A stretch of 64,000 nt of DNA, from assembly GCA_002753155.1 (NCBI GenBank), contig PDZW01000004.1, positions 1 to 64,000 of the forward strand, given 5' to 3'. The notes beneath the pieces are model-generated. The model was not told the DNA's origin. It saw only the letters and a program-made list of their open reading frames with translations, and did not search any database. Both the position numbers and the translations under genes were made by a program. Source of the DNA: Alphaproteobacteria bacterium WMHbin7. Its GTDB lineage: Bacteria; Pseudomonadota; Alphaproteobacteria; Rhodospirillales; WMHbin7. Positions 1 through 11,625 of this stretch are shown here, piece after piece; within the stretch, counting starts at the first letter, position 1; each line of letters starts with the position of its first letter.

Positions 1-191
1 CCGAAAATCTGGCCGCGATTTCTTCGAAATCATCCTCAAAAACGGTGAGGTGGGGAGCACATGGATTTGTAAAAATTTCATATGCTGTCATTCCATAATT
101 CCCAGTTATCTTTCACATGATCCATGATTGTATCAGCGCGTTCGCGCATCGCTATTGCTTGTAATTGTATTAAGCGAAAAAATCAAGATGC

Positions 192-1310
192 TTACACCGT
201 ATAAGGCTGGCCAGGATCATCTGCTGCATCAGCCTTACCGAAATGGGTGTCATACAGCTTGATGGCATTTGCGCGCGCTGTGGGCCCGAGCCTGCGCTGA
301 ACTGTATAATTTAGTGCCTGAAGATAGCCGTTCAGGGCTGCCTCGCCGGGATCCATCCCCAAATCATCATGCGATGCCTTCACTGGAAAGAATTTGTCGC
401 CCAAGCGTTCGATAACCCAGGTGACCAGCGATAGCCCACAAGCCGTCATTTCCTCTTGTGGAACATCCAGCTCGCATTCGACCAGATTATGGGGCGGCGT
501 CTTGCGTCTGACTTTGCTTTTGCGTGACGTCGAGACCAGTAGGATTGGCAGGCTGGATGGCGGCATGCCTATCCTTGTCGTCTGCCAAGTGTCGCGTTCA
601 CGTACCGCAAAGACAAGGCGCTCTGCAGGCCACTCAACATCTTCCAACTTCAGCCCATGAGTAAGCCGTGATTGATGCTTCCTTAGTTGAATCATCACAT
701 CACGCAGGGATGGCTGATAGGATTTGACCTCAACAATCCCGTAAATCTCGATGGGGCCGCCGTTGTCGCGGGGAAGACAGGCGATCAATCCGTCAGCACC
801 CTTGTACCAACCGGCACTGCCATCACGGCGCATCCGGATCGTTGAGCCCGGGATCAACCTGACCGACGATGGCAGAAGTCCGGAGTTTCGCCAGCCATTG
901 ATAAGCGCAATCACCGTTTCGAAGGCCAGGAGTTCGGCAACTTCGCCTTGCATTTTGACGGCGACATGGCCAACCAGAAAATTGAGGAGCAACTCCACTT
1001 CGTCATCGGATAATGTTGAATCGTCAGTCACAAACTGGCGCAACAAACCGCTTTTCGGATGATGGACAATATTCGGCACCGGTTCAAAAAGAGCCGTGAA
1101 CAAAATTCGCTCAACGTCAAAGACAGTAGGCCTCGTCTGACCAGTGGTTTCCATCACCAAGCCAGCCGCAGCACGCACTAACCGCTGCGCCAGCTTTTGC
1201 GATCCCACGATATCGGCAAATTTGGCCGTTAGGCCGTCAACCGGCACTCCGTTTGAATCAAGGGCTAAATCGTTACTGCCAACCACCCTGCCCTCCAAGA
1301 ACAACGTCAA
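192..1310 (-). CDS. Putative PD-(D/E)XK-type nuclease / hypothetical protein of defence operon
   Basis: 372-aa ORF, 46 bp downstream of the AAA ATPase and co-directional; contains GADGLIAC...IEIYGIVEVKSYQPS, i.e. a D-(x)n-E-x-K core (EVKSY at 717-731). No closer family recognised. Confidence 0.6.
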   Translation of the reverse strand: MTLFLEGRVVGSNDLALDSNGVPVDGLTAKFADIVGSQKLAQRLVRAAAGLVMETTGQTRPTVFDVERILFTALFEPVPNIVHHPKSGLLRQFVTDDSTLSDDEVELLLNFLVGHVAVKMQGEVAELLAFETVIALINGWRNSGLLPSSVRLIPGSTIRMRRDGSAGWYKGADGLIACLPRDNGGPIEIYGIVEVKSYQPSLRDVMIQLRKHQSRLTHGLKLEDVEWPAERLVFAVRERDTWQTTRIGMPPSSLPILLVSTSRKSKVRRKTPPHNLVECELDVPQEEMTACGLSLVTWVIERLGDKFFPVKASHDDLGMDPGEAALNGYLQALNYTVQRRLGPTARANAIKLYDTHFGKADAADDPGQPYTV

Positions 1311-1356
1311 CTGGCAACCACCTCTCCGGATTACAGCGGACCGCTCCAGTCCCAGT

Positions 1357-4011
1357 CTATTTCACTGTATCGTGATGCTTCTTTAACCATTCCGCCACGG
1401 CTTCAAGTTCGGCCAAGTCCTCTGCCAACTCTTTCGGTTCCGGTATCGGATCGGTGTTGGCACCGGGATTGTCGTGGCTATAGGTCGAGCATCGGGTCAT
1501 ACCGCTTTCGATGCGGGAAAGAATGACGGGGTCGGCGGTCAAATAGCGGAGCTTCTTCGTCTGAATATCCTTTTGGAACCGCTGGACCATGCCATAAAGC
1601 AGCAATTCCTCCACCAGCCGCTCCCAGGCATCGCGCATGCGTCCATAGATCTGCTTGGCATCCCGTTCATATTGCCCAGCACTTTCATCGGCCGTCTTGG
1701 CCGCTTTCGCAACCATGGTTTTGAGTTCGTGAATTCGGTTCTTAACTTTCTGAGAATTCCATTTCCCACGAATGGGATCGACATGCCCGGCGGTGCCAGC
1801 CGAACGAACGTGGAATAGTTGCTGAAAGTCCAACGGACCTCCTGTCCCCTCAACAGCCGTACACAGCTTGTCGTAGAACACCAGGTCGTGGGTGAAAACG
1901 ACGACCTGCCGTCGTGTTGCCTCATCGGCCAGGCGGCCTGCGATGACCTGCGCCCAACTATGGTCCAGAGACGAAACGGGATCATCGAAGACCAGGCAGC
2001 CGCAGCCGCCGCCAATGCTCTGCTCGGCCAGAAAGGCGGCAAGAGACAAGGCCCGGCGTTCGCCTTCGCTTAGAATTTCAGACAGTTTGCAGTCGGTGAT
2101 CTTTCGGCCATCCAAGTCGATGATAAATTTCGCGGCATCGCGGTTCTTCTTTGGAGTGACCGTAACCTTCAAGCGTTCCAATTTTAGGGCAGCGATTTCA
2201 CGTGCATAGGCATCGCGAAGACTTTCCGTGAGATAACGGTCCTTCAGGGCATTGAAGAATTTGGTGATTTGCTGAGGATTGGCACTGTCAACGCAAGCTT
2301 GCAAGGCTTCCTGTGTCGCCAAATCGCGGACCCGCTGTTCAAGCCCTACCTTGCCTGCTTCAAGTACCTCCCAAGCCTCAAGCTCTCTTAACTCGGCGGC
2401 TTGGGCCTGAGCCTCGGGACTTCCGGCCCCAGCCGTCAGCCGCTCGATGTCCTGACGGGTGTTCTCGGAAGCAATGACAAGCCTTGCCGCGACGGCAGTC
2501 GGAACAGGCGCCAGGGCACTTTGCCCATCCAACCACGTATCGATGGAAGCGCGCCGCAACTGGGCGGCTTGTCGCCACGCAGCTAGATCGGCAGCCAGAA
2601 CCGGATCCTCCTGGGAAAGATCGAGCTTCGCCAGCGTGCCTTCAACTTCCTTCAGGGCCGCATCCAGGTCTTCGATCCGCTGGCCAAACAGCTCGGCCGC
2701 TTCCTCGGCGTCTTGCTGAATCTGGGTAGAGACATAGTCCTCTAAGTTCCGAAAGCGTTTCTGCGCTTCCGGCTGCAGGACTTGCTGGCAGAGCGGGCAG
2801 AGTGCGCCGTCTTCCACTTGGGGAAAGGCATGATCGGGATGGGAATCTGTCTGGGCATAGACCCGTGCTGCTTCCCACATTTCCTTCCACAACGGGCTGC
2901 TAACAGGAAGAGAACAGCCCTCAAACAGATGAGCGTTGAGATCCCTGGCGGTCTCGGCCTTCCGCTTGGCCTCGAACCGGGCGGTACGGGTAACCTCCAA
3001 TTCGGCATCGCCTAAAAGGTCCTCGGCACTTTCCACGGCCAGTCCTGCCGCGTCCAGGAGAGGTGCTAGCACTGTCTTGGTTCGAAGTTTCTCCTGGGGC
3101 GCCAGAACGGATTGGCGCAGATCCTTAAGACGCGCCTTTTGATCTGCGGAAAGCGTCAACTTGTCGGCAATCTCCTGTGCCGTCGTCTTGCCCGATAGCC
3201 CGGCGACAAAAGCGGCCGCCTTAGTACCCTCGGCGATCTTGGGACTCGTCTGCTCCAGTTTTGTGGAAAGCGCCTTGACCTGCCCCGATAATATTTCACG
3301 CACTTCATCGCAAAACTCGATTAGTCCCTGGATGATGTCAATGTTGAAGGGCAGCAATTCGATGGCATTGCCGAAATCGACATAGGCTTGGGTCGCGTCG
3401 GCATCGAAGACCGTCAGGCCGGGAATGCGTTGGCCAAGTGTGGCGGCGCTCCAGGTGAACGCCTCTTTAGCCCCGTTAATCTCAATGTCAATGATCGCTG
3501 TCGCATCGGCGGCAGGAGCGTCGGCAAAGACGTCGGGCAGAATCTTCTTCTTCGGATCGTCGCCTCGGCCACTGCCGACGCGGCGCAGGATACGGGTATA
3601 GCCCGATTTACCGGCGCCATTGTCGCCCAAGACCGCCGTCAAGCCATCACGGGAAAACGTCAAGTGCGCATCCCCGGCCATTCGGCCCACGTGCCGGATG
3701 TCATGGATGCCTAACACCCGCGTTGTCACGCCGCTGGAACTTCCGCCCGAACCCAAATTTTCTGCCCCCAGAGGCACCATTTCCGGCGGCTCGCCTTCCA
3801 CCGGCAAGCCGCCTTCCTTGCGAACGAACGCCGTCAATTCCGCCTTGTCGGCTTCCGTCAGAAAGCCTGCAACGGCAAGCCGGCGCAGGGCGTCTTGCTG
3901 CCACGTGGGACGTCCTGCGGACCATTCAAGGATATCGGCAATGGGGTCGGGTACAGCGGCAGCAACCGGAGCGTCGCCTTCAGGCATGTCCTCGTTCTGT
4001 GGCATATCCAT
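1357..4011 (-). CDS. RloC/AAA_13-like ABC-type ATPase with zinc-hook-like CPLC motif
   Basis: 889-aa ORF (1357..4026); preferred ATG at 4011 overlaps the upstream stop as TGATG. Walker A GDNGAGKS, signature LSEGERRALSLAAFLAE, Walker B CLVFDDPVSSLDH, H-loop VVFTHDLVFY; GALCPLCQQVL flanked by predicted coiled coil; C-terminal RDAWE...YSH. Confidence 0.8.
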   Translation of the reverse strand: MDMPQNEDMPEGDAPVAAAVPDPIADILEWSAGRPTWQQDALRRLAVAGFLTEADKAELTAFVRKEGGLPVEGEPPEMVPLGAENLGSGGSSSGVTTRVLGIHDIRHVGRMAGDAHLTFSRDGLTAVLGDNGAGKSGYTRILRRVGSGRGDDPKKKILPDVFADAPAADATAIIDIEINGAKEAFTWSAATLGQRIPGLTVFDADATQAYVDFGNAIELLPFNIDIIQGLIEFCDEVREILSGQVKALSTKLEQTSPKIAEGTKAAAFVAGLSGKTTAQEIADKLTLSADQKARLKDLRQSVLAPQEKLRTKTVLAPLLDAAGLAVESAEDLLGDAELEVTRTARFEAKRKAETARDLNAHLFEGCSLPVSSPLWKEMWEAARVYAQTDSHPDHAFPQVEDGALCPLCQQVLQPEAQKRFRNLEDYVSTQIQQDAEEAAELFGQRIEDLDAALKEVEGTLAKLDLSQEDPVLAADLAAWRQAAQLRRASIDTWLDGQSALAPVPTAVAARLVIASENTRQDIERLTAGAGSPEAQAQAAELRELEAWEVLEAGKVGLEQRVRDLATQEALQACVDSANPQQITKFFNALKDRYLTESLRDAYAREIAALKLERLKVTVTPKKNRDAAKFIIDLDGRKITDCKLSEILSEGERRALSLAAFLAEQSIGGGCGCLVFDDPVSSLDHSWAQVIAGRLADEATRRQVVVFTHDLVFYDKLCTAVEGTGGPLDFQQLFHVRSAGTAGHVDPIRGKWNSQKVKNRIHELKTMVAKAAKTADESAGQYERDAKQIYGRMRDAWERLVEELLLYGMVQRFQKDIQTKKLRYLTADPVILSRIESGMTRCSTYSHDNPGANTDPIPEPKELAEDLAELEAVAEWLKKHHDTVK

Positions 4012-7000
4012 CACTCTATCCCCCAAGCCGCCTCCAACCGCTCTCGGCTGCTCTTGCGTAGCACCTGGAACCCCGCGATTCGGGCCATCTCCTTCAGTGC
4101 CTCATCGCCATCCATTCCCTGCGCCTTAATTTCGCGGGCAAGTGCCGCAAGTTCGGGCAGCGCGGTTTCGTCAACCGGGCGGTTTGCACCGGTTGTCGGG
4201 CGGCGATAAGCAGGCCAAGCGCTGGTGTCCATTCCCTTGGGCCAGACGAAGTGATATTCGCCCTCTTTGACCAAGTGGAAATCAGGCTTGGCTGCCTTCA
4301 AGACCCGCTCGTGGATACGCCCACCGGTTCGAGTCCAACCATGGGCTCTGGCCACGCGCTTGGCCAGCACGTCATCGCGCACCGGCCCTTCAGCCTCGAC
4401 CACGGCCGAGATCATGGTCCGCAGGGTGGCGTCGTAAGAACGCTCGAAGAAGGCCTCCGCATCAACGCCGCTGGCGTCGGACGGATCCCATTCACGGAAA
4501 ACTGATGGGGTGATGGAAGACACACCAGCCCCTGCCGGTCCGCGGGCATAGGTAGGCGACAAGGCAAAATCGGCGGCCTTGAACAGGTCGTCTGCCAAGC
4601 GACTTCGTGAGGATGGTTCCACGTCCACCGCTTCCGTCAACGGCCCGGTCTCTGCTTCAAGGTCGTCCACTTTGGAAACGGTATTGATCTCCTCCTCAGC
4701 CCGGCGAGACCTGGCAACCTCCAGCAGAGAGGCTAGCCGGTCATGAACCTTGCCAAGGGCGCTGGCCTTGTCCACCCACCAGTCGGTCGACCAGATACGG
4801 ACGATCTCCCAGCCCAGCCCCCGCAACACCTGTTCGCGTAGCTTGTCGCGGTCGCGGGCCGTGGCCGAACGGTGATAGGTGGCTCCGTCGCATTCGATGC
4901 CTGCCAGATAGCGGCCAGGGGCATCTGGATCGACCACGCCCAGGTCGATGCGGAATTTGGACACCCCCACCTGGGGATGGACACGCCAGCCATGCTCGGC
5001 CAGCGAGGCGCCAACCGCTTTTTCGAACGGGGAATCGTAGTCGCCGATGGTTCCCTGATTGGCTTCGGCCAGGGTGCGCGGACCGCGTTCGGCAAATTCC
5101 AGGAAGTGCTTGAGGTCCCGGACCCCTTCTGCCCTGGTGCGGCTGAGTTCCATCTTCTCGGGCGACAGGCTGGAGAATACGCACAACTCATGGCGGGCGC
5201 GGGTGACGGCCACGTTCAGCCGCCGTTCGCCGCCACTCTTGTTCATGGGGCCGAAATTCATCGAAACGGCACCAGTAATGTCGGGGCCATAGGTGATCGA
5301 GAAATACATCACATCACGTTCGTCACCCTGGACGTTCTCAAGATTCTTGACGAAAACCGGCTCCAGCGCATCTTCGGCAAAGTAGGGCTCGATGCTAGGA
5401 TCCTTGCGCCGTTCTTCGTCCAGCAGGTCCTCGATCAGTTTCTGCTGCTCGCTGTTGAATGTCACTACACCGACGGTCAACCCGCTAGTGGCAAATGCCT
5501 TGTCCTTGAGCCGACGCACGAGGTGCGAGACCAGGGCAAAGGCTTCAGGCTTATTGATGCGGGCACCACCCTTCTCGTAAACACCGTTACGGACCAGGTG
5601 AAAGCTGACGGCTCGGTCCTCGGTCACCGGCGAGGGAAAGGTAACCAGCCGCCCCTCGTAATAGCGATGGTTCGAGAAGGCGATCAGGCTTTCGTGACGA
5701 GAGCGGTAGTGCCAGTCCAAGGAGCAGACGGCGAGATTAGCGCCGATACATTCATCCAGGATGGATTCCATGTCGCCTTCAAGTTCCACGCTGTCGTCCG
5801 CGTCCTCTTCCGAACGGCCGAAGAAGTTGGTGGGGGGTAACTGCTTGGGGTCACCCACCATCACGACTTGGCGGCCACGCGCAATGGCGCCGATCGCGTC
5901 CCAAACGGGGATTTGCGACGCCTCGTCGAACACAACAATGTCGAACATGGCCTGATCCGGCGTCAGGTATTGGGCGATGGAAAGTGGGCTCATAAGCAGG
6001 CAGGGCGTCAATTTAGGCAGGGCATCTGGTATGCCCTGGATGAGCGAGCGCAGGGGAATATGCGCGCGCTTCTTGCTCATTTCGCGCTTAAGCAACCCCC
6101 ATCCCGAAGCTCGCTGAATCGACTCCTGTTCTGGCAATTCCGAGCAAAGACTGGCCCGGATCATCGCCCGGGTGAGTAGATTGAAGCGATCATCCAGCGC
6201 CTTGAAAGCCTGTATCCGGCTCTCGTGCTGGGCAGAGACGAAGCCACGCAGGACAGCGTCATTGTCAACCACGGCATCAAGCCACCAGCGGGCGTAATTC
6301 ACCTCGAACGTTTCGCGTACCCGGCCAAGGGCAACAGCACCGCTTTCAATTCCCATCACTAGAGAAGACAAACCGGCGGCCATGGCCTCGGCGCGCACCT
6401 TGCGCCAAGCGCACCAGCCGTTAAGCTTGGCAGCCAAAGGCGGAATAGCCCTGCACGCCTCGGAAAGCGAATGCGGATCGTCGCCCAGGATGGCGGCAAA
6501 CCCTTCCTCATCACGGCCACAGCAGACCCTGAAGCTATCTTTGGCTGTTAGGAACCACCCCAGGGCATCGGCATAGCTTTGCCCCGCCCCCATCACCGGC
6601 CCCGACGCATCCAGCAGCGCGTTACCGTCGCCCAGCAGTTTTTCCAAAGGTCCTTTCAAGGCCGCCAAGTCTTCAGCCGTGGTCGCCAAGAGCCCCATTG
6701 CCGAAGAGAGCCCCGCCTGGAATTTCAGGGCCGCTTCCACCTCGCCGACTCTGGTTCGTAGTCCGGCCCAGATCCCGCCACTGCGCGAACCGAGATCGGC
6801 CAAGTCCTCGATCTCACGTTCGAGTGCGCGCAGATCGCGCATACGGCCAAGATCGCCCTTCATCTTAAGACCGCAACGCCCATCAGCGATGGCCGACAGG
6901 CCCTCCTCGGTCCAGGGCAGAACCTCTCGGGCAGCCGCCAACGCCGACTGGAAGCGCAATGCCGCCTCCATCTCCTCGGTGGTGTTCCACGGTTCGCCCG

Positions 7001-10000
7001 TGCAAGAGATCAGCGTCTTCAAACCGTCCAGTTCCGCCTCGGTCCGACGCAAGGTCACCAGCCGGTCAAGGTCACCAGCAAAGTCGGGCTTACGCCCTGC
7101 GGGAATGAAGGCCACTAGCGATTTTTCTACCCTTCGCTTGCCCAGCATCTTGGGCAGGAACCAGGATCGCTCGGCCTTGTCCCAGTCGTTCTTCAACTGC
7201 CCTGCGTCAAGGGCTTTCACGCCGTCGGCATAGGGAACGGATAATTGGCCAGTGACTTGGCTATGCAGATTTAGCAGGTCGATCCCCTTGCGCACCGCTG
7301 CCGCCACGTCGGCCGCCCAGGGTTCGGCCAGCAGGTCCATCAGGGCACGATGACGGCTTAGCAGATCGAGGCCATTCTGGAGGTTGATGGCGATGGTTTT
7401 GGCATCAGGCCGCAAGGCAAAGCGCCAGTCGCTGCCTGAGGCCTGAGGCAACAGGTTGGCCAGTTCTTTCAGACCGTCACGCGTCCGCTGGGCCAGACCC
7501 ATCTCGGGAAGACCGACGGCCTTGCGTAACGCAACGGCTGTGTTGATCAGTTCCTCCACCGCCGCAGGCACCACCTCTGCCGCCTGGATTAGCGAACTTT
7601 GCCAATGCGGCGACCATTCACCATGAGCCACCGGAGACAAAGGGCCGCTGGTGACAGAGCCGACGGCCCTGGCATTCACATCCAACCGCTCGGCCAAATC
7701 GCCTAGACCGATGCGGCCATCAGTGTCATGAGACTCGGCAGACGCCCAAGACAGTTTCAGGCGCGGCATGTCGGCTCCGCCGACGATTCGTCCAATGGCG
7801 GAGAACGCGGTCAGGCCGTTGCGGTGCTTGTGATGCAGCCGGTCCACATAGGTGTTGAGTTCGTCCCGCAGCCCCTTGAGGCGCTGCGCCTCGCGCCGCC
7901 ATTCGTTCCCTTCCACCTGGCCCTTGGCGTCCCACGCCTGGCGCAGCTGTTCAAGGACGTCCAGCTTGCGGGCCTTGTTGGAATGGAGTTCAAGGCAGAA
8001 ATCTCCCAGCCCCACTTCGCGCAGACGCCTGTAGACCACGTCCAAAGCGGCGATCTTCTCGGACACGAACAGCACTGTCTTGCGCTCGGCCAAGCATTGG
8101 GCAATGAGGTTGGCGATGGTCTGGCTTTTGCCAGTGCCGGGCGGCCCGATCAGAACAAAATCTTTGCCTCGGGCGGCGGTCATCACGGCCGATAATTGAG
8201 AAGAATCCGCCGGGAGTGGGCAGAAAATCTGATCCGGCGCTTGCTCGCGGTCGAGAGAACGGGGATCGACAAAACCGATGGCGCTGGGATAAGGATCGCG
8301 TGGCGTGTCGATCAGGTGGCGGACCACCGGGTTCTGCTTCAATTGGTCGGTTCGTTCGACCAGATCCTTCCACATCAGGAACTTGGCGAAGGAGAAAGTG
8401 GCCAGGGCAACATCTTGCTGCACCTCCCAGCCCTTGATGTCTTTGATGGCTTGGGCCACTTGGCGCCAGATGCCTTCGACGTCAAGACCATGGTCATCCT
8501 TGGGCAGTTCGGCATCGCCGAAAGGCAGGTTTAGCTTGAAGTCCTGGCGCAGCATTTCCAGCAGCGTCGGATTGAAGCGGGGTTCGTCCTCATGCAGCAG
8601 CAGCGAAAAGCCCGAACGTATGCTTTTACGTTCCAGCGTTACCGGCAACAGGATCAACGGCGCCCGATGGCCCTTCTCCTCGTTCTCGCGCTTCCAGACA
8701 AGAAAACCCAAGGCGAGGAAAAGCGTATTGGCTCCCCCTTCCTGGAGATTTGCCCTGGCTTGACGGTAAAGCTCCACCAGCCGGTTCTCCAGCTCGTTCT
8801 GCTGGATGCCGACCAGCACCTGGTCTCTGTCCATGGCGTCGAGGGCATGGGCACGGCGGGCATCTTCATCGTAGCGCTCCTGGAACAGCGCCTCGCTACG
8901 TGGATCGGCTCCCTCCATGAGGTCAGGCCGCGGCATCAGCCTGATGCGTTTGCCTTGGGCCAGCAGGTCTTCCAGTTTTCCAGGGTCCGGAGCATCGAGC
9001 GGGATCACCCGCTTGCTGGCGCGGAAATTCAAAAGTCCGTTGCGCAAAGACAAGTCGAGCAACTTGCGCTGCCAGCGGTCCAACCTTCCCTGGGGAGTTG
9101 CGGGCGCTTCATCGAGAGGGGTGGTGTCCTCGGGCAGGTCGGGGGCTGGTTCGAAGGTCGGCTCCAACGCCTCTTCCGGCAAGGCGGCCACATGCGTGAC
9201 TGCTTCACCCGAAGCCAGCGGCTTGATACGCTGCATGCGGGCCCTGCGCAAATCCACGGCCAGTTCGAAACCGTCTTCCTCGGCCATGATCTGCTGGGCA
9301 CCTCGCTCGACCGCGCGACTGAAGGCTGGCAGTGGCCGCTGCGTGGCCAAGGTTGTCTCGAAAAGGGCCATCTCCTTAAGCTGCACCCGCTTGCGCAGTG
9401 CCGAAACGTCATCCACCACGGCGGTCGAGAACTCCTCGGCCTTCAGCCACAGACCGGCAAAGGCATGCCCCTTGGTGAAGACCAAAACGGGATTCAGGCC
9501 GCACTGCTCAAGGCAGGCGCAAAAGAGCAGGGCTGTATCCAGGCAGGTGGCCAGCCGCGCCTCAAGAATCTGGGATGGGCCGCGCAACTTCTGCCCCGCA
9601 TGTTCGAAGCTTGCCGGCGGCAGGACATAGTCGATGCCTTGGGAGCCGATGGCGGTCCAGATGGCCGAAGCCAGTTCCCAGGCCCGCTTGGGCCCGCCCA
9701 AGTAGCCATTCAGCGCCGCTTCGCGCCCATTGTCCCGCAGCACCTCCGCCGCCTTTTTCAGAAGCCGGTCCACCGCCGGATCGTTGGGCTGCACGAAGGC
9801 GGCCACTATCTCCGGCAGTTGGCCGATTCCGCTCCAATGATTGCGGGGTAACAGCTCGATCGGCTGGATCAGCCTCGCCATTTCATCACCGCCTGATTTG
9901 GCAACGAAAATAGCACTGGTCGTCTCAGCTTCCGTCAGGCGGGCCAGCAATCCGGCATCCAGGGTCACGTCAAGGCTGGATATGTGGTATCGCTGACCAG

Positions 10001-10214
10001 CGCCGACATAGTCGATATGCCAGGTGCGCGGTTCCAGAAAGCCCGGTTCGGAAGATAGTTCGAGGTCTAGGTCCCTCAACTCGTCAGCGCTATCGTTGAC
10101 AAGCACCACCTCCCGCAACAGCGGCACGGCATTCTGATGGAAAGCCAGATTCAGCCTGGGTATGACGGAAACAATGATTTTTAATGGTGCTTCAACTGCC
10201 GCTTCTGAAACCAT
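4011..10214 (-). CDS. Hhe-type defence protein: transglutaminase-like + DUF4011 + SF1/UPF1-like helicase + Vsr/DUF559-like nuclease + DUF3320
   Basis: 2067 aa. RLDRWQRKLLDLSLRNGLLNF (DUF4011-like), GPPGTGKSQTIANLIAQ (Walker A), VVFDEASQI and VGDPKQLPPT (SF1 motifs II/III), NVAVTRARHELCVF (motif VI), SPFEKAVGASLAEHGWRVHPQVGVSKFRIDLGV...IECDGATYHRSATARDRDKLREQVLRGLGWEIVRIWSTDWW (Vsr/DUF559-like), FFERSYDATLRTMISAVVEAEGP (DUF3320-like). Confidence 0.85.
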   Translation of the reverse strand: MVSEAAVEAPLKIIVSVIPRLNLAFHQNAVPLLREVVLVNDSADELRDLDLELSSEPGFLEPRTWHIDYVGAGQRYHISSLDVTLDAGLLARLTEAETTSAIFVAKSGGDEMARLIQPIELLPRNHWSGIGQLPEIVAAFVQPNDPAVDRLLKKAAEVLRDNGREAALNGYLGGPKRAWELASAIWTAIGSQGIDYVLPPASFEHAGQKLRGPSQILEARLATCLDTALLFCACLEQCGLNPVLVFTKGHAFAGLWLKAEEFSTAVVDDVSALRKRVQLKEMALFETTLATQRPLPAFSRAVERGAQQIMAEEDGFELAVDLRRARMQRIKPLASGEAVTHVAALPEEALEPTFEPAPDLPEDTTPLDEAPATPQGRLDRWQRKLLDLSLRNGLLNFRASKRVIPLDAPDPGKLEDLLAQGKRIRLMPRPDLMEGADPRSEALFQERYDEDARRAHALDAMDRDQVLVGIQQNELENRLVELYRQARANLQEGGANTLFLALGFLVWKRENEEKGHRAPLILLPVTLERKSIRSGFSLLLHEDEPRFNPTLLEMLRQDFKLNLPFGDAELPKDDHGLDVEGIWRQVAQAIKDIKGWEVQQDVALATFSFAKFLMWKDLVERTDQLKQNPVVRHLIDTPRDPYPSAIGFVDPRSLDREQAPDQIFCPLPADSSQLSAVMTAARGKDFVLIGPPGTGKSQTIANLIAQCLAERKTVLFVSEKIAALDVVYRRLREVGLGDFCLELHSNKARKLDVLEQLRQAWDAKGQVEGNEWRREAQRLKGLRDELNTYVDRLHHKHRNGLTAFSAIGRIVGGADMPRLKLSWASAESHDTDGRIGLGDLAERLDVNARAVGSVTSGPLSPVAHGEWSPHWQSSLIQAAEVVPAAVEELINTAVALRKAVGLPEMGLAQRTRDGLKELANLLPQASGSDWRFALRPDAKTIAINLQNGLDLLSRHRALMDLLAEPWAADVAAAVRKGIDLLNLHSQVTGQLSVPYADGVKALDAGQLKNDWDKAERSWFLPKMLGKRRVEKSLVAFIPAGRKPDFAGDLDRLVTLRRTEAELDGLKTLISCTGEPWNTTEEMEAALRFQSALAAAREVLPWTEEGLSAIADGRCGLKMKGDLGRMRDLRALEREIEDLADLGSRSGGIWAGLRTRVGEVEAALKFQAGLSSAMGLLATTAEDLAALKGPLEKLLGDGNALLDASGPVMGAGQSYADALGWFLTAKDSFRVCCGRDEEGFAAILGDDPHSLSEACRAIPPLAAKLNGWCAWRKVRAEAMAAGLSSLVMGIESGAVALGRVRETFEVNYARWWLDAVVDNDAVLRGFVSAQHESRIQAFKALDDRFNLLTRAMIRASLCSELPEQESIQRASGWGLLKREMSKKRAHIPLRSLIQGIPDALPKLTPCLLMSPLSIAQYLTPDQAMFDIVVFDEASQIPVWDAIGAIARGRQVVMVGDPKQLPPTNFFGRSEEDADDSVELEGDMESILDECIGANLAVCSLDWHYRSRHESLIAFSNHRYYEGRLVTFPSPVTEDRAVSFHLVRNGVYEKGGARINKPEAFALVSHLVRRLKDKAFATSGLTVGVVTFNSEQQKLIEDLLDEERRKDPSIEPYFAEDALEPVFVKNLENVQGDERDVMYFSITYGPDITGAVSMNFGPMNKSGGERRLNVAVTRARHELCVFSSLSPEKMELSRTRAEGVRDLKHFLEFAERGPRTLAEANQGTIGDYDSPFEKAVGASLAEHGWRVHPQVGVSKFRIDLGVVDPDAPGRYLAGIECDGATYHRSATARDRDKLREQVLRGLGWEIVRIWSTDWWVDKASALGKVHDRLASLLEVARSRRAEEEINTVSKVDDLEAETGPLTEAVDVEPSSRSRLADDLFKAADFALSPTYARGPAGAGVSSITPSVFREWDPSDASGVDAEAFFERSYDATLRTMISAVVEAEGPVRDDVLAKRVARAHGWTRTGGRIHERVLKAAKPDFHLVKEGEYHFVWPKGMDTSAWPAYRRPTTGANRPVDETALPELAALAREIKAQGMDGDEALKEMARIAGFQVLRKSSRERLEAAWGIE

Positions 10215-10526: not shown

Positions 10527-11625
10527 TTACTCAAAGAATTCGACCATCGACTTTGCGACGAACTGTCGGTCGCGGCAGCGCTGCCCGGCAAATTAGACAA
10601 AACCCAGCTCCATCAATCTGGCCACCGCCTCGTTGACGCTGGCGAAGCTGCCGGTGCCGATGCCGACCTAAGCGTCCTTGACTGTAAATTTCGGATGGGT
10701 GAGTGCCCAAGGTATCAGCGGATGCACCAGTGAGTGCGAGCGGAGTTTGGCCGTCGCCTTCTGCCTGTGCGACAATAGACTGGCCAGCTTGGACAGGCGG
10801 CCTAAATTTGTCTGCTCGGCCAACGCCAGAAAGGTCCGCGTCCAGGGCGCGAAGTCGCCCGTGCTTCTGGCGCCCCTCAGCCCCTCGACATAAAGCTCTT
10901 TGTTCTGGCGCACCCCCTCGCCCAGAAAGACGCAGGCATTTGCCGTCGCTCCCTTCCAACTCATCACCAACGACACCAGCAGGCGGCCGATCCGTCCATT
11001 GCCATCGTGAAACGGATGGATGTGTTCGAACATCCAGTGCGACAACGCTTGGCGCACCAGTTCGGGGCGTTTTGTGGCATCCATCGTCAGGCCAGACAAA
11101 AGCACCAGGACATCACTCAATTGGTCGGGAAGCGTGTACAGGAAATAACCGCCCAGTCGATCCTGGTCGGCGACACCGTTGGGGGTTGTTCTCATCTTTT
11201 CGCCATCCTTGCCGGGAAACAGGCGACAATGGATGCTTTTAGTAGCCGTCAACAGATCACCCTTCTTCTGCGACAGAGCGTCGAAGGCGTCCGCCGTAGC
11301 GGCGACAGTGTGCGCATCTTCAGTGTCGGGAGCGCCTCAAGCCAGATTGGAATTCTAAGAGAAGAGACCGCCGAAGGTCGCTGTGCAACCCTCGGTGGTT
11401 GGGGAATGCACGGCATCGGTCCGCCCAAGCAGACTGCCAAAGTGCCGGAAACGGGGAAGACTGACAGCGCCGATCAAACTCGCCGATGGCGCTTTCCGCG
11501 GCATGCAAACGCTCCCACACATCGTCTAATTTGGGAAAAGGCAACACCGTCGGCCGATAGCCCAGCCGACCATAGTCACTCCGGTAGTAGCTGCCGAATT
11601 CCTTCACGGGCAGCCGCGCTAACAT
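10527..11625 (-). pseudogene. Decayed Fic-domain protein gene
   Basis: ORF 10668..11252 has the Fic motif HPFHDGNGRIGRLL. In-frame TAG (10668-10670) and TAA (10593-10595) interrupt a C-terminal winged-HTH-like tail (SFASVNEAVARLMELGFV*FAGQRCRDRQFVAKSMVEFFE*). A Fic N-terminal-like stretch (GYRPTVLPFPKLDDVWERLHAAESAIGEFDRR) lies in a different frame at 11320..11625. Confidence 0.75.

Follow-up and report, generated by a model that had tools for sequence, protein, structure and literature searches.

The EcoprrI-PrrC system encodes an ABC-HEPN tRNase together with a DNA-attacking enzyme, an arrangement for which a second-line logic has been proposed. The EcoprrI restriction enzyme keeps PrrC latent, and phage inhibition of the enzyme releases PrrC (PMC3710099, PMC2610378). 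The tRNase RloC is controlled by its own ATPase region and zinc hook, is thought to be responsive to DNA damage (PMC3710099, PMC2610378), and acts without a partner gene (PMC2610378). In the RloC of G. kaustophilus, the importance of R692, E696 and H737 and of the hook cysteines C288 and C291 has been confirmed by mutation (PMC2610378). A third arrangement was described by Anantharaman et al., who reported giant proteins that comprise HEPN, transglutaminase, SF1 helicase and Vsr nuclease domains together with winged helices, and who suggested that the RNase brings about suicide when the DNase fails (PMC3710099).

The window considered here (the whole 64,000-nucleotide stretch of DNA that was analysed) carries three genes in the same direction on the minus strand: gene 1 at 4011-10214, gene 2 at 1357-4026 (889 aa as listed) and gene 3 at 192-1310. 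Their features are as follows.

4011-10214, minus strand: gene 1, ProA, 2067 aa, with a transglutaminase-like region, DUF4011, a split SF1 helicase, a Vsr-like REase (MTES_1575) and a DUF3320 winged helix (NCBIfam and Pfam)
9390-9587, minus strand: gene 1 putative transglutaminase-like core (C224, H250, D269), all three residues invariant in 9-10 ProA homologues
8550-9065, minus strand: gene 1 DUF4011 (Pfam PF13195, E 3.5e-49)
8124-8147, minus strand: gene 1 Walker A motif GPPGTGKS, aa 690-697, invariant in the ProA alignment
5169-5969, minus strand: gene 1 SF1 helicase core, second part, from the DEAS box through the motifs to VI (AAA_11/AAA_12; PDB matches SMUBP-2, SEN1 and UPF1)
4734-5027, minus strand: gene 1 Vsr-like nuclease domain MTES_1575 (Pfam PF18741, E 5e-36), with E1731, D1757 and E1774 invariant
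4311-4454, minus strand: gene 1 DUF3320, winged helix (Pfam PF11784, E 5e-20)
4019-4024, minus strand: GGGGGA, a Shine-Dalgarno-like run before gene 2 (sequence)
4009-4013, minus strand: TGATG overlap of the gene 1 stop and gene 2 start (sequence)
1357-4011, minus strand: gene 2, RloC-like ABC ATPase with a C-terminal predicted anticodon nuclease, 884 aa from the ATG (PADLOC PDC-S06 and AAA_13)
3604-3627, minus strand: gene 2 Walker A, aa 134-141; of 93 sequences, 92 conserve it and one is gapped there
2788-2799, minus strand: gene 2 zinc hook C410-x2-C413, invariant in 93/93
2059-2073, minus strand: gene 2 ABC signature LSEGE, with S653, G655 and E656 invariant in 93/93
1474-1635, minus strand: gene 2 predicted anticodon-nuclease triad R798-x3-E802-x48-H851, invariant in 93/93, with an E-H spacing of 48-52 residues
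192-1310, minus strand: gene 3, orphan 372-aa protein with a PD-(D/E)XK-like motif, no family or homologue, coding-like codon usage
723-794, minus strand: gene 3 candidate active site D173...E194-V-K196, picked by eye from the translation
1-91, minus strand: possible fourth gene, cut by the contig end, open frame MTAYEIFTNPCAPHLTVFEDDFEEIAARFS; a second frame is also open there

The layout given in a preliminary description of this DNA, with three co-directional minus-strand genes, a TGATG at 4013-4009 and a 46-bp gap before gene 3, was confirmed in the sequence. The minus strand reads GGCTTGGGGGATAGAGTGATGGATATG, in which the TGA stop of gene 1 (4013-4011) overlaps the ATG of gene 2 (4011-4009). 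Because of this overlap and the GGGGGA run at 4024-4019, gene 2 most likely starts at the ATG at 4011, which gives a protein of 884 aa, and not at the TTG at 4026. In the spacer between genes 2 and 3, a GGAGAGG precedes the TTG start of gene 3. Codon usage is coding-like in all three frames (0.19, 0.17 and 0.08, the lowest value being that of gene 3), while alternative frames score negative.

Gene 1 is a full-length member of the ProA family, and an anti-phage role is predicted for it from that membership. It matches the NCBIfam model NF058533 ('anti-phage protein ProA') with 2335.7 bits, well over the curated cut-off of 1500, across positions 1-1902 of the 1903-position profile. The preliminary description had assigned it to the Hhe type, with which it has the DUF4011-helicase-Vsr architecture in common; this assignment was rejected, as the score against the Hhe model (NF042953) is 855.7 bits, below the cut-off of 2000. 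Its best PADLOC match is the candidate single-gene family PDC-S37. In an alignment with nine ProA homologues (41-57% identity), the DEAS residues are invariant as well. The transglutaminase-like label comes from motif and residue order, and no Pfam model reports that region. ProA is possibly, as we assume from the name only, the 'Prometheus' system of DefenseFinder. In the literature on the origin of the two names, Prometheus was mentioned only in passing, as the name of a system, and the source publication of ProA was not found.

A Fic/DOC-family reading frame (Pfam Fic, 40 bits) lies upstream of ProA at 10668-11252 on the minus strand, among short overlapping frames, and has the appearance of a decayed gene. 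RloC-like genes have been reported near Fic/Doc toxins in restriction loci (PMC3710099).

Gene 2 matches PADLOC family PDC-S06 over its full length (560.8 bits, profile positions 3-855 of 858), so that genes 1 and 2 both have whole-length family-profile matches far above chance. In likeness to RloC, it combines a split ABC ATPase, a CxxC hook and a C-terminal R-x3-E...H triad, and its 884 aa compare with 658-897 aa for RloC orthologues. It is assigned to a different profile family, however, and its sequence likeness is remote. It is therefore called RloC-like and not RloC, a term that refers to shared motifs and to a match to Pfam AAA_13 just over the cut-off (42 against 36 bits). In all 93 full-length family members, the C410/C413 hook lies between Walker A and the signature motif. 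Because both triad and hook are kept in all 93, gene 2 is better read as a predicted tRNA-cleaving effector than as the ABC-ATPase relay proposed at first; a pure relay was rejected on account of the invariant RNase-type triad. The C-terminal domain is modelled as a confident helical fold (pLDDT 86), but a fold search with it was not significant (best E 0.1, with the HEPN proteins 3o10 and 1o3u among the weak matches), and the predicted tRNase activity thus rests on the motif and not on the fold. The gene 2 protein of the window sits on a long branch in a tree of 93 gene-2 proteins, with at most 33% identity to any intact relative. Its nearest kin is a decayed fragment in Magnetospirillum sp. 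SS-4 (L059:9735-11443), with 66% identity and an internal deletion; phage-like genes adjoin this fragment, and no ProA occurs on its contig.

Gene 3 is an orphan. Searches of Pfam, PADLOC, NCBIfam, PHROGs and the PDB returned no meaningful match. Using tblastn, degenerate-pattern scans and phmmer against all neighbours, no homologue was found in 387 genomes of the class, in plasmids or phages, in pattern scans of GTDB genomes and viral contigs, or in any fetched neighbourhood. A single-sequence AlphaFold model was unusable (pLDDT 37). Gene 3 is perhaps a lineage-specific accessory and candidate nuclease. Since it lacks a homologue anywhere searched, a conserved three-gene unit is not supported, and nor is the earlier proposal that the three genes form one multi-component system.

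At its left end the window coincides with the end of contig C17, which lies 191 bp beyond gene 3. A further minus-strand reading frame downstream of gene 3 opens at about position 91 and runs off this contig end, so that the operon may comprise more than three genes. No homologue was found for the frame at 1-91, and when the contig end was used as a query against the genome, it returned only itself and short chance matches.

We consider it somewhat better than an even bet that genes 1 and 2 form a two-stage anti-phage module, in which a DNA-attacking ProA is translationally coupled to an RloC-like tRNase that acts as its guard, comparable to EcoprrI-PrrC. This reading starts from the observed gene layout, family membership, conserved motifs and recurrent adjacency. 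In the first stage, ProA would recognise and process foreign DNA through its helicase, Vsr-like nuclease and winged helix. The RloC-like protein would be a latent guard, which would use its Rad50-like ABC head and its zinc hook to keep watch over DNA or over the complex of ProA with DNA. If DNA processing were overwhelmed or blocked, the C-terminal HEPN-type nuclease would cut tRNA and translation would stop. Gene 3 would be a lineage-specific accessory, perhaps a nuclease. The enzymatic activities, physical coupling, latency and trigger in this scheme are all predicted ones, as are an anti-phage function and benefit in this host.

The comparison with described systems holds in part. In contrast to EcoprrI-PrrC, a methyltransferase is absent here, PrrC is without the zinc-hook insert, and the latency control at this locus is one that we infer. 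Links between RloC and a DNA-attacking gene are rare, but gene 2 is coupled to one, and ProA, a single protein in NCBIfam and PADLOC, here overlaps an RloC-like gene. The HEPN-transglutaminase-SF1 helicase-Vsr-wHTH giants (MTES_1575 type) contain the same DNA-attacking parts and a HEPN RNase (PMC3710099), so that the same kinds of part are also found in one chain. In the window, similar parts are split between two overlapping genes. The giants, however, are one polypeptide with a Swt1/Abi2-type HEPN, while the RNase here would be a separate RloC-type protein.

Adjacency of ProA and gene-2 relatives recurs in other genomes. Scanning GTDB genomes with an alignment of the gene-2 family yielded 80 loci, and six plasmid loci brought this to 86, all found through gene 2. 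ProA adjoins gene 2 in five of the 86 (L056, L057, L073, L075 and L088), representing three lineages. The scan alignment contained L057, a locus already seen with an adjoining ProA, which means that L073 and L075, near-identical loci from Mesorhizobium, do not count as independent of it; with the L057 lineage set aside, the strictest count among the 86 loci is two lineages. Chance would produce about 0.02 such loci under a uniform expectation, or 0.35 with 20-fold island enrichment. For three or more, P is 0.005 at 20-fold and 0.06, no longer significant, at 50-fold enrichment, both factors being assumed values. Fetching plasmid loci with ProA as the query added L168 and L175, together with L169 and L176, where the copies are damaged. 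When the 93 gene-2 proteins are placed on a quick tree, the association falls at six places: the window, L056, L057/L073/L075, L088, L168/L169 and L175. Gene order is tandem in the window, L057, L088 and L168, divergent in L056 and convergent in L175.

The association between genes 1 and 2 is probably functional, and to this extent the link proposed in the preliminary description, and the synteny check it suggested for other genomes, stand at six separate places on the tree. The partner is nevertheless optional and present in a minority of loci, and gene 3, without a homologue, has no share in the synteny. Few of the 93 gene-2 loci have a ProA partner. ProA more often occurs without gene 2 than with it: among the 13 chromosomal loci of the class that have ProA above the cut-off and usable flanks, not one has gene 2 beside it. 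Because most loci of either gene lack the partner, reading the two as one obligate multi-component system is too strong.

The same figures favour defence-island clustering, in which ProA and the RloC-like gene would each be a single-gene defence that works on its own, the two having been collected side by side; the TGATG would be a compact junction that does not couple them functionally, and gene 3 would be a passenger. PADLOC models both genes as single-gene candidates (PDC-S37 and PDC-S06), the plasmid loci L170, L171, L173, L180, L181 and L182 have neither partner, and RloC, as noted above, needs none. Clustering is harder to reconcile with adjacency repeated at six places on the tree, with the short spacing between ProA and gene 2 at the tandem loci (an overlap, 30, 105 and 134 bp), and with a third module common to both genes. 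Overall, it is a serious though unlikely explanation.

The third module is a gene pair encoding a calcineurin-like SbcD-type exonuclease and an SbcC/YhaN-type ATPase (Pfam Metallophos and AAA_27). Of the 86 loci, 18 have such a pair near gene 2, and in the full set of 93 the pair co-occurs with gene 2 in 21. It adjoins ProA where gene 2 is absent in seven loci (L172, L174, L177, L178, L179, L200 and L201; the SbcD call in L178 is from the record's annotation), and is present in 2 of the 13 chromosomal ProA loci. In L174 and L177, a 2-bp gap separates ProA from the SbcD-like gene. The pairing of ProA with these genes where gene 2 is absent, as in L174, L177, L178, L200 and L201, is an association in its own right. 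The pair is found with both ProA and gene 2 in L057/L073/L075, L168 and L175. The window, where the contig ends beside gene 3, has no such pair. As a control for island background, seven GajA loci, too few for the purpose, included none with ProA or an SbcCD-like pair; the comparison gave a P of 0.34, computed with 19 loci in place of the 18 counted.

A wider and more speculative reading, which we hold to be doubtful, is that a single, undescribed composite defence is built from interchangeable modules, namely ProA, the SbcD/SbcC(YhaN)-like pair and the RloC-like tRNase. The tRNase would sense when either nuclease arm fails in DNA-end processing or carries it to excess. The window would be the ProA and tRNase form, with the orphan PD-(D/E)XK-like protein perhaps replacing the SbcCD arm.

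Gene-2 relatives also lie downstream of other DNA-related genes at short distances: an MmeI enzyme at 20 bp (L136), an Eco57I-type methylase at 27 bp (L095), a Z1-AIPR gene set at 30 bp (L102) and an SNF2 helicase at 51 bp (L117). Partners as varied as these would be expected if the gene-2 family supplied a guard for many kinds of DNA-attacking system. Layouts resembling L102, with a gene-2 relative directly 3' of a gene pair, occur in L097, L104 and L116 (the Pfam scan covered L102 only), and make up a further recurring partnership of ABC-tRNase-like proteins. At L050 (6974-14866), a type I-like restriction helicase (HSDR_N, EcoEI_R_C) is encoded 9 bp downstream of a distant ProA-like gene (1837 aa).

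A last alternative, close to the relay model of the preliminary description, casts gene 2 in a structural role, as a Rad50/SMC-like clamp on DNA or a relay that serves a DNA nuclease (ProA, gene 3 or the SbcD-like enzyme), with a C-terminal domain that is not a tRNase; its Rad50-like head, the candidate nuclease that gene 3 would place beside it, and the seven loci in which SbcD/SbcC-like pairs adjoin ProA without gene 2, as if alternative partners, suit this idea, which is nonetheless improbable, since a merely structural domain would not need the fully conserved R/E/H triad and since gene 2, so often found together with SbcCD-like pairs, is no simple replacement for them.

The two-stage module of ProA and a guarding tRNase thus draws its support from full-length ProA membership, the invariant triad and hook, the TGATG overlap, recurrent adjacency and guard-like neighbours. 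It is weakened by the frequent absence of the partner, the divergence of gene 2 in the window, the non-significant fold search and the loss of significance at 50-fold enrichment.

The association between genes 1 and 2 is worth testing. If this reading is true, the PrrC principle, in which a suicide tRNase guards a DNA-attacking system, would extend to ProA-type helicase-nucleases and SbcCD-like pairs. The ProA and gene-2 families, each at present treated in models as a single-gene defence of its own, would have to be tested as modules, and assays of one gene at a time could misjudge them. RloC-like proteins, for which the proposed trigger is DNA damage, would gain a set of candidate physical partners.
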